Assembly: GCA_009773555.1 (NCBI GenBank)
Contig: WSXZ01000015.1
Coordinates: forward strand, 57,404-121,403
Length of the DNA: 64,000 bases
Direction of reading: 5' to 3'
Source: Methylocystaceae bacterium
Lineage (GTDB): Bacteria; Pseudomonadota; Alphaproteobacteria; Rhizobiales; Beijerinckiaceae
In this document: piece after piece, positions 10,185-13,576 of the stretch
Layout: the number at the start of each line of letters is the position of its first letter
Position numbering within the stretch: position 1 is the stretch's first letter
Translations under genes and position numbers: made by a program
Notes under the pieces: model-generated
Seen by the model: only the letters and a program-made list of their open reading frames with translations
Database searches by the model: none
Told to the model about the DNA's origin: nothing

Positions 10185-10412
10185 TCAACAGCAGCGAAAG
10201 GCGCGCTCGCCGCCGGCGCCGAAACGCGCATTCTCGCGCGCACGGAAAAATTCGTCGCGCGTCATGATCGCCTCACCGTCGTGGAGCGCGCGGACATGCG
10301 CGGCATAGGCGTCGTAATCGCCCTGCCCGACCATCAGCTTCGCGCCGTCGCGCAGCTTGCGCGCGAGACGATTGAGATCAAGCCCCGGCAGGCTGCAGAT
10401 CGTGCAATTCAT
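10185..10412 (-). CDS. YbdD/YjiX family small protein
   Basis: 75 aa, KLMVGQGDYDAYAAHVRALH...FFRARENARFG...RCC; overlaps cstA 3' end. Confidence 0.85.
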   Translation of the reverse strand: MNCTICSLPGLDLNRLARKLRDGAKLMVGQGDYDAYAAHVRALHDGEAIMTRDEFFRARENARFGAGGERAFRCC

Positions 10413-12471
10413 CTTCGGTCTCCCGCGTGGTGACATGCTCAGCGGCGCGCGCGGCGCGAATGGCTCGGATCGCGAAGCCGAGCATCGCCAGAACCAGCGT
10501 GACATAGATCGCGCAAAGCGTAGCGTCGACATAGTCGTTGAAGATGACGCGCTGCATCTCGGCGAGCGTCTTCGCCGGCGCCAGCAATTGGTCCTTATCG
10601 GCGGCTGCTGCGAATTTTCTGGCGTGCGCCAGAAAGCCGATGCGCGGATCGTCATGAAAGATTTTTTCAAACGCCGCCGTCAGCGTGCAGATGTAGAGCC
10701 ACGCCGTCGGCGCGATGGCGACAAAGGCGTAACGCTCGCGCTTCATCCGATAGAGCACGACGACGCATAGCGTCAGCGCGATCGCCGCGAGCATCTGATT
10801 GGCGATGCCGAACAGCGGCCACAGCGTATTGATGCCGCCGAGCGGATCAATCACCCCCTGATAGAGGAAATAGCCCCAGCCGCTCACGGCGATAGCGGTC
10901 GCGGCGAGGTTCGGCGTCCAGGCCCTTGTGTTGCCGAAGGCCGGAAAGAAGGCGCCGAAGAGATCCTGGATCATGAAGCGCGCGACGCGCGTGCCGGCGT
11001 CGATCGTGGTGAGGATGAACAGCGCTTCGAAAAGAATCGCGAAATGATACCAGAAGGCTTTCGCCGCCGAGCCGCCGATGGCGGAAGAGAGGATATGCGC
11101 CATGCCGACGGCGAGCGTCGGCGCGCCCCCGGTGCGCGACAGAATCGTCTTCTCACCGACTTCGGCGGCGACGCCGGACAGCGTCTCCGGCGTCACCGCG
11201 AACCCCCATGAAGAGATCGCCGCCGCGGCGGAATCCGGCGTCGCGCCGATCAGCGCCGGCGCGCTGTTCATGGCGAAATAGACGCCGGGCTCCAGCACGC
11301 TCGCGGCGATGAGCGCCATGACCGCGACGAATGATTCCATCAGCATGGCGCCATAGCCGATAAAGCGCGTCTGCGTCTCGTCGGCGATCATCTTCGGCGT
11401 CGTGCCGGAGGACACAAGCGCATGAAAGCCCGACACCGCGCCGCAGGCGATGGTGATGAACAGGAACGGGAAGACGCTGCCGGCGAAGACCGGGCCCGTG
11501 CCGTCGATGAACCGGCTGATCGCCGGCATCTGCAGGTCCGGCCAGACGATGAAAATGCCGATCGCGAGCGACATGATCGTGCCGACCTTCAGGAAGGTCG
11601 ACAGATAGTCGCGCGGCGCGAGCAACAGCCACACCGGCAAAACTGACGCGACGAAGCCATAGCCGATGAGCATGAAGGCGAGGGTCTCGGCCTTGAAGGA
11701 AAAGAGCGGCGCAAGCAGCGCGCTCTCCGAGACGGTGCGGCCGAAGGCGATGCTCAAGAGCAGCAGAACAAAGCCGATCGCCGACATTTCGCCGATCCGT
11801 CCCGGCCGCAGATAGCGGCCATAGACGCCCATGAAGACGGCGATCGGCAGCGTCGCGAACACGGTGAACGCCCCCCAGGGACTATCCGCGAGCGCCTTGA
11901 CGACGACGAGCGCCAGCACCGCCAGCAGGATGATCATGATCGTGAGAATGCCGATCATGGCGATGACGCCGGGCACGCGGCCCATCTCGGTCTTGATGAG
12001 ATCGCCGAGCGAGCGCCCGTCGCGGCGCGTCGAGATGAACAGGACGAGAAAGTCCTGCACGGCGCCGGCGAAGATGACGCCGGTTAAGAGCCACAATGTT
12101 CCCGGGAGATAGCCCATCTGCGCCGCAAGCACGGGACCGACGAGCGGTCCTGCGCCGGCGATGGCCGCGAAATGGTGGCCAAACAGCACCCATTTGTCGG
12201 TCGGCACATAATCGAGACCGTCATTGCGGCGAAGCGCGGGGGTGCGGCGGCGCGCATCGAGCCCCAGCACACGCTCGGCGATGAAGCGCGAATAGAAGCG
12301 ATAGCCGATGGCGTAGGTTCCGATCGCCGCCGTCACGAGCCACATGGCGTTGACGTTTTCGCCGCGCGAGACCGCGAGCGTGTAAAGCGAGAACAGCACG
12401 AGGGCGAACACGAGCGCCCAGGGAAACAGCGCGATGGCGTTGCGAGGAGAGCGAGCGAGAATTGTCGACAC
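10378..12471 (-). CDS. cstA: Carbon starvation protein CstA family transporter
   Basis: FGHHFAAIAGAGPLVGPVLAAQMGYLPGTLW, GFHALVSSGTTPK; longer ORF start (12561) reads through a repeat, so GTG 12471 preferred. Confidence 0.9.
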   Translation of the reverse strand: MSTILARSPRNAIALFPWALVFALVLFSLYTLAVSRGENVNAMWLVTAAIGTYAIGYRFYSRFIAERVLGLDARRRTPALRRNDGLDYVPTDKWVLFGHHFAAIAGAGPLVGPVLAAQMGYLPGTLWLLTGVIFAGAVQDFLVLFISTRRDGRSLGDLIKTEMGRVPGVIAMIGILTIMIILLAVLALVVVKALADSPWGAFTVFATLPIAVFMGVYGRYLRPGRIGEMSAIGFVLLLLSIAFGRTVSESALLAPLFSFKAETLAFMLIGYGFVASVLPVWLLLAPRDYLSTFLKVGTIMSLAIGIFIVWPDLQMPAISRFIDGTGPVFAGSVFPFLFITIACGAVSGFHALVSSGTTPKMIADETQTRFIGYGAMLMESFVAVMALIAASVLEPGVYFAMNSAPALIGATPDSAAAAISSWGFAVTPETLSGVAAEVGEKTILSRTGGAPTLAVGMAHILSSAIGGSAAKAFWYHFAILFEALFILTTIDAGTRVARFMIQDLFGAFFPAFGNTRAWTPNLAATAIAVSGWGYFLYQGVIDPLGGINTLWPLFGIANQMLAAIALTLCVVVLYRMKRERYAFVAIAPTAWLYICTLTAAFEKIFHDDPRIGFLAHARKFAAAADKDQLLAPAKTLAEMQRVIFNDYVDATLCAIYVTLVLAMLGFAIRAIRAARAAEHVTTRETEDELHDLQPAGA

Positions 12472-12495
12472 GATTGCGAGATCTTCGGCTATCTT

Positions 12496-12534
12496 CCCTC
12501 TCCCCGCTGGCGGGGAGAGGGCAGGGTGAGGGGC
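12496..12534. repeat. Palindromic repeat, left copy flanking DUF559 gene
   Basis: ccctctccccgctggcggggagagggcagggtgaggggc: 12-bp stem plus tail; inverted relative to copy at 12959-12998. Confidence 0.9.
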
Positions 12535-12584
12535 GAGGCGTATTGCCCCGATGTTGAGCAAGCATTGTTAGCAGAGATATTGCG

Positions 12585-12959
12585 ATGCGTGGAATACGTC
12601 TGCACGAAACCTTTTTCGGCCGTAAGTTACGAAAATCCCAGACATCCGCGGAGCAACGCCTTTGGGCGAAGCTGAGAAGCCGACGTCTCGGCGGATATAA
12701 GTTTGTCCGCCAACAGCCGATCGGACCTTATTTCGTGGACTTTCTGTGTCGAGAGCACGCGATGATCCTCGAGGTCGACGGCGCCACACATTCGACTGCG
12801 GAAGAGCTGGCGCACGACATGCGGCGAACCTGTTTTCTAAGCGACGCCGGATTTCAAGTTGTACGCGTAACGAACGACGACGTTTTCGCCAATATCGAAG
12901 GTGTCTGCGAAACTATTCTCGCGAAAATCCGGGACGACATCGCTGCGAAAAAGCCCTAG
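12585..12959 (+). CDS. DUF559 domain-containing endonuclease-like protein (Vsr/PD-(D/E)XK-like)
   Basis: SAEQRLWAKLRSRRLGGYKFVRQQPIGPYFVDFLCREHAMILEVDGATH, typical DUF559. Confidence 0.92.
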   Translation: MRGIRLHETFFGRKLRKSQTSAEQRLWAKLRSRRLGGYKFVRQQPIGPYFVDFLCREHAMILEVDGATHSTAEELAHDMRRTCFLSDAGFQVVRVTNDDVFANIEGVCETILAKIRDDIAAKKP

Positions 12960-12998
12960 CCCCTCACCCCTGCCCTCTCCCCGCGCGCGGGGAGAGGG
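12959..12998. repeat. Palindromic repeat, right copy flanking DUF559 gene
   Basis: gcccctcacccctgccctctccccgcgcgcggggagaggg; about 37/40 match to reverse complement of left copy. Confidence 0.9.
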
Positions 12999-13430
12999 AG
13001 TTAACGGTCAAGGGATCGCGGCGGCCGGCGAAATATTTGTCCAGAGCCTCGCCGAAAAGCGGCTCTTGCGGCGCCGCCGCCGCAAACAACGTCATCGACG
13101 AATGAAACTTCAAATCATCGGGAGAGCCGAAGATCTCATGCGCGCTGCATCCCTCGACCTTGTTGACGAGTCCAACGCACTCTTTGAGCCGCGCGCCCAA
13201 TAGAGGATGATCGAGATAGGCCGCCGCCTCGCCGAGAGAATGAATGGCGTAGCGCTGCGCCATGGCGCTTGCGCCGAGGCTCCTTCGAGCTGCGGAAAAA
13301 CGAACCACATCCAGTGGCTGCGCTTGCGGCCGGCGGCGAGTTCCGCCGTCGCGGCCGCATAGATCGGATCCTGCGCCGCGACGAAGCGGGCGAGATCGTA
13401 AGGATCGTCCGAGGCGGCGGTCATGACCAA
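12964..13430 (-). pseudogene. DUF1810 family protein, frameshifted near 13282; 3' end replaced by repeat sequence
   Basis: N-terminal half (DPYDLARFVAAQDPIYAAATAELAAGRKRSHWMWFVFPQLEG) and C-terminal half (ASAMAQRYAIHSLGEAAAYLDHPLLGARLKECVGLV..EIFGSPDDLKFHSSMTLF) are in different frames. Confidence 0.85.
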
Positions 13431-13450
13431 ATCCGTTGATCAACTCCGAT

Positions 13451-13558
13451 GTCATTCCCGACGCGCGCATAGCGCGCGATCTGGGAATCTAAAGCAAGAC
13501 CAACATTATAGAATTGGCTCTGGATTCCCGGTCGGACCTGTGGTCCGCCGGGAATGAC
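13451..13558. repeat. 108-bp intergenic repeat with gtcattcccg/cgggaatgac terminal inverted repeats
   Basis: Related element of similar length at 46970-47074 and half-unit at 41158-41197. Confidence 0.75.
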
Positions 13559-13576
13559 AGGCCAATCGATTCGATA

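Follow-up and report, generated by a model that had tools for sequence, protein, structure and literature searches.

Intrastrand-triplex repeats of the PIT/TM type have been known for decades, and Hoyne is said to have described them, as PIT or TM_ECO, in 2000. DUF559 is a common protein family of unknown function. PIT/TM repeats are present in E. coli and in more than 260 genomes (Holder 2015, PMC4666352). Within the part of that paper drawn on here, triplex formation in vitro is reported for TM_ECO only, the authors find no common function among the flanking genes, and no nuclease partner is named (PMC4666352). The repeats that we describe in the window (the whole stretch of 64,000 nucleotides analysed here) and its relatives share with PIT/TM a CCCTCTCCC hairpin with a C/T-rich stem, followed by a purine-rich GGGTGAGGG tail that mirrors the stem, an intergenic location and a frequent arrangement in inverted pairs, but here the repeat brackets a DUF559 gene. 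The tag mirrors its own stem at 0.89-1.00 in seven of seven repeats, a correspondence that is clearly stem-specific only for the class designated S below. Judged by their sequences, the REPs that bracket DUF559 match the PIT/TM repeats, and the repeat itself is not new. Our survey of the open-access literature found no paper connecting DUF559 to palindromic repeats.

As in REPIN-RAYT systems, a single small nuclease gene lies between short palindromic REPs that pair up as REPINs, every nuclease lineage comes with a REP class of its own, and REPs are also dispersed elsewhere. Unlike the RAYT, which is an HUH Y1 transposase, the nuclease here is an EDxHD/PD-(D/E)XK enzyme, and in place of a GTAG tag the repeats carry a G-rich mirror of the stem (GGGTGAGGGG and similar). 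We therefore read the DUF559-REP system as a partnership that functions in the manner of REPIN-RAYT with an unrelated nuclease, and not as a member of that class. CGTC-tagged REPs are abundant in alphaproteobacteria and are said to lack a dedicated transposase (PMC3733652). CGTC-looking repeats occupy the same cysS site as one DUF559 cassette in relatives of the window genome, but their sequence and tag differ and they are not the repeats that bracket DUF559. A second inverted pair in the window, TCATTCCCGACGCGCG ... GGGAATGACA at about 13452-13560, looks by eye like a CGTC-type REPIN, and sequence like it matches many places in the genus.

On the protein side, the homing endonuclease I-Bth0305I shares the catalytic fold and the conserved E-D-H-D residues. 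DUF559, in contrast, is a free-standing single domain of 124 aa without an intron or DNA-binding extension, and its gene has its presumed sites on either side and does not interrupt one. Vsr, which nicks T:G mismatches of a methylase site during mismatch repair, is alike in fold only.

Inverted REPs around DUF559 genes

The window locus is composed of the following features.

12496-12534, + strand: left REP, with a palindrome at 12496-12521 followed by the G-rich tag GGGTGAGGGG aimed at the gene
12585-12959, + strand: gene for a DUF559 (PF04480) EDxHD/Vsr-like endonuclease of 124 aa
12959-12998, − strand: right REP, an inverted copy of the left REP
12431-13005, no strand: 575-bp block present, among the aligned genomes, in G000 and G025 only
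10378-12561, − strand: flanking cstA ORF (PF02554), its true start probably near 12470
12964-13470, − strand: flanking DUF1810 gene, with PF08837 matches in two frames

Aligned in inverted orientation, the two repeats agree at 37 of 39 aligned bases (2 mismatches) and differ by 1 gap, and each has a 12-bp stem (CCCTCTCCCCGC/GCGGGGAGAGGG) and a G-rich tail that faces the gene. The DUF559 ORF starts 51 bp past the left repeat, and the last base of its TAG stop is also the base with which the right REP begins. The earlier note had described this arrangement of inverted hairpins and abutting gene correctly; its statement that no further copy of the repeat was seen in the window holds for the window only. 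The stem pattern occurs there twice, where shuffles predict zero occurrences even with 3 mismatches, and more copies and gene-less pairs lie on contigs C114, C96, C135 and C120 of the 4.0-Mb, 144-contig assembly. As single-stranded DNA, both repeats form more stable folds than shuffled sequence does (z −2.95 and −3.14). Rfam gave only sub-threshold matches at the hairpins, and an RNA family was rejected as their identity. The gene itself matches PF04480 with 120.5 bits (E 4e-35), against a curated Pfam cut-off of 20.6. The DUF1810 gene beside the cassette covers profile positions 2-43 in one frame and 40-136 in the other, a split that is probably a frameshift.

All three DUF559 genes of the window genome are bracketed by inverted REPs, whose sequences differ between loci; the cassette on contig C42 has a perfect 46-bp inverted repeat with its copies 374 bp apart, and that on C62 has 49-bp arms within two REPINs. 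Across the genus, taken here as Methylocystis, flanking inverted repeats with a score of at least 36 were detected at 97% of 60 loci, compared with 0.1% of 2093 random intervals drawn from the same DNA. A wider test with a score of at least 34, on samples that are mostly from Alphaproteobacteria, detected brackets at 95.6% of genus genes (n = 68), 79.7% of the best NCBI matches (n = 74) and 70% of a phylum draw (n = 20), against 0.5% of 2252 random intervals; the NCBI set is biased to close relatives because the search profile was built from genus members, so that the phylum draw gives the fairer estimate. Roughly 20-30% of the wider DUF559 genes gave no detectable bracket. Chance pairing of the repeats with DUF559 is ruled out by the window shuffles and both random-interval controls, and the co-occurrence beyond chance, for which the earlier note proposed a test, is evident at either threshold.

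Bracketed genes in Deinococcus and Cyanobacteria are single checked cases. Long inverted brackets surround two plasmid genes of Deinococcus (scores 107 and 98), a Pseudanabaena gene has a bracket score of 108, and the arms in Picosynechococcus are weak (score 29). No bracket was found at the two Bacillaceae plasmid genes tested, and no inverted bracket at the Klebsiella and Lelliottia copies, which appear decayed. At loci L375 1468-1821 and L381 1474-1884, DUF559 lies within a Deinococcus operon (paaD-DUF559-paaZ) and a Sphingomonas operon (sufB-DUF559-sufC).

Tags point inward on 109 of the 128 tagged sides in the genus; the tail-inward orientation is common but not universal, and in the Deinococcus cassettes the palindrome lies closest to the gene. 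The proposal of a nuclease-linked, REPIN-like cassette with a PD-(D/E)XK protein in the position of the RAYT is sustained in its core by the co-occurrence and, as described below, by the lineage match, the copy-number link of two of three REP classes and the empty sites, and is modified in that many cassettes are REPIN-gene-REPIN rather than REP-gene-REP.

The strong hairpins, and a stop codon that abuts the right REP, would also suit REPs that serve as terminators or mRNA stabilisers around a small, possibly toxic ORF whose protein recognises none of them. We consider this quite improbable, as gene-less REP pairs are dispersed far from DUF559 and REP class matches nuclease lineage. REPs bracketed none of 284 other ORFs in an ORF-bounded control, a weak one because its pattern is insensitive and because DUF559 ORFs extend into the REPs.

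The nuclease and its REP classes

Invariant residues of the DUF559 protein include D52, E63, D65, H69 and D78 (window protein numbering). The structures matched by an AlphaFold model (pLDDT 89) are 3HRL, which is itself a DUF559 protein, and the I-Bth0305I catalytic domain (3R3P; E 6e-5, TM 0.77), followed by Vsr (1VSR), and a profile match to I-Bth0305I has an E of 2e-4. The protein is predicted to share its fold with Vsr and with I-Bth0305I, an EDxHD homing endonuclease. Selection on DUF559 is purifying, with a median dN/dS of 0.12 over 70 pairs and none above 0.46, and dN/dS is 0.06 between the window gene and its G025 orthologue. The Vsr-like fold, together with the link between VsrA, a DUF559 protein of Caulobacter, and ScmA (PMC12907096), would be consistent with a Vsr-type mismatch repair enzyme that has a cytosine methylase partner and for which the repeats are incidental. 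Such a role leaves both the bracketing and the matching of REP classes unexplained, and we think it very improbable.

REP classes were assigned by visual inspection of the repeats, ahead of tree building. On the nuclease tree of 60 genus cassettes, nine REP classes require 8 changes, which is the minimum, compared with a shuffled mean of 41.5, and the nine classes correspond to nine DUF559 lineages. Many of the 60 cassettes are orthologous, falling into 19 flank groups; one representative per group gives 7 changes, a figure without a shuffle. A label-free Mantel test limited to pairs without shared flanks gave a weaker but significant association (rho 0.13, p ~0.002).

Copy number follows the same pairing in part. 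Counted beyond the cassette's own repeats and ignoring phylogeny, REPs of the S class (p 3e-4) and the U class (p 6e-4) are commoner in genomes with the cognate gene, the U-class link having a p of 0.012 when the test is limited to the better genomes. No link was found for the T class (p 0.16), so the expectation that repeats would be rarer in genomes without the cognate gene was borne out for two of three classes. Hand-reading of tail-inward S-class pairs with a spacing of 200-1200 bp in G001-G013 found that 11 of 11 enclose a DUF559 gene or fragment, and DUF559 is the sole gene found inside S-class pairs of gene-sized spacing.

These results bear on whether another enzyme (a RAYT, an IS or host recombination) moves the REPs, with DUF559 as trapped cargo. 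Y1 transposases do occur in some genomes of the genus, and direct-repeat REPINs permit recombination; matches to Y1_Tnp/RAYT are, however, limited to 9 of 39 genus genomes and absent from the window genome, where a RAYT is thus ruled out as the partner. With REP class tied to DUF559 lineage, gene-sized S-class pairs holding DUF559 only, and the RAYT-typical GTAG tag absent from these repeats, we regard trapped cargo as improbable. The recurrent, type-matched pairing of enzyme and repeat suggests instead that an orphan repeat class has a dedicated enzyme and spreads with it.

Site polymorphism and a proposed homing-like cycle

At the window site, seven related Methylocystis have ~104 unrelated bp in place of the 575-bp block, whose right edge lies 7 bp beyond the right REP and whose left edge lies ~65 bp beyond the left REP, within the cstA start. 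Because these ~65 bp of the cstA start differ too, the site represents a replacement, not a clean insertion. Relatives differ at the C42 site: some keep the cassette intact, and others have an internally deleted form in which REP sequence survives, a remnant of the palindrome, or an X-type REP pair that looks like it holds a short DUF559 remnant. Beside cysS, the alleles form a series whose order is undirected: G012 lacks any element, and other genomes have a CGTC-like pair, one U REPIN (G018, G019, G013, G031 and others), a REPIN-DUF559-REPIN cassette whose REPINs are direct repeats (G000, G010, G025, G002, G008), or a cassette of another kind, the Y type. REPIN-gene-REPIN and single-REPIN alleles thus occur at one locus, and related genomes with empty sites exist for the window site, the C42 site and the cysS side. 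Two of three gene-less 140-bp S pairs keep S-cassette sequence and are deletion derivatives, i.e. gene-less REP pairs can arise by internal deletion.

The E. coli K-12 gene ycjD, which is annotated as DUF559, maps to the sapF-fabI interval and adjoins TM_ECO no. 9, and ycjD sequence is present in 3366 of 5426 E. coli genomes. In the two ycjD-less genomes that were opened (L251, L252), an RND efflux operon lies beside fabI at the expected ycjD position; the sapF-fabI region is therefore not a clean empty site, and E. coli was ruled out as an empty-site test. The PF04480 control search gave no match in E. coli, despite the annotation of K-12 ycjD as DUF559. Records NZ_CP141089 and NZ_OL790696 (L244, L245; E. 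coli, 4.8-4.9 Mb) and NZ_CP119142 (L246; N. gonorrhoeae, 2.2 Mb) are filed as plasmids and look like chromosomes.

An indel scan of two species at ~96% identity (G006/G007) found no REPIN insertion difference over 160 shared kb, a weak result obtained with a faulty REP pattern. It suggests that any REPIN movement is slow; movement is slow, or has stopped, or was missed through the faulty pattern. With a corrected pattern, 19 of 392 indels had more REPs in the longer allele, and a REP was present in 1.5% of random segments.

We read the window feature as one instance of a widespread element made up of nuclease and repeats, in which a small EDxHD/Vsr-type DUF559 gene is bracketed by cognate REPs. 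We hypothesize, with a probability of about 0.6, that the nuclease recognises and spreads its own REPs in a homing-like cycle. Each DUF559 would recognise the hairpin and G-tag that mark its cognate REP class and nick or cut there, and repair of the break would carry a copy of the cassette, or of a REPIN without the gene, from one REP site to another in the manner of a homing endonuclease. Recombination of the two flanking REPINs would remove the gene and leave one REPIN, and the REPINs found at other genomic positions would be derivatives that are not autonomous. Against this model, intact REPINs on both sides would stay cleavable, unlike a classical homing site.

The main rival to homing-like spread is that DUF559 processes REP hairpins or triplexes that stall replication and moves nothing, so that nuclease and repeat are retained together through linkage and addiction. 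PIT/TM loci are described, in the part of the source drawn on here, as unstable and possibly fork-stalling (PMC4666352), and VsrA of Caulobacter triggers DNA damage responses in the absence of a methylase (PMC12907096). Strong purifying selection on DUF559 and, weakly given the faulty REP pattern, the lack of a REPIN difference over 160 kb point in the same direction. Taken alone, such processing leaves unexplained the repeated bracketing at different loci, the REPIN-gene-REPIN direct repeats and the cassette swaps, and we judge it unlikely, if less so than the other alternatives.

More broadly, and at somewhat less than even odds, homing-like spread by DUF559 may constitute a second, RAYT-independent route of REP spread, in which class-specific DUF559 proteins move orphan PIT/TM repeats through a cycle of single-REPIN and REPIN-nuclease-REPIN states in several phyla. 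If they are partners, PIT/TM repeats and DUF559 would each explain the other, and a 124-aa protein together with a 40-nt DNA would suffice to test what spreads these repeats. The DUF559-REP pair would then also provide an independent comparison for REPIN-RAYT systems.
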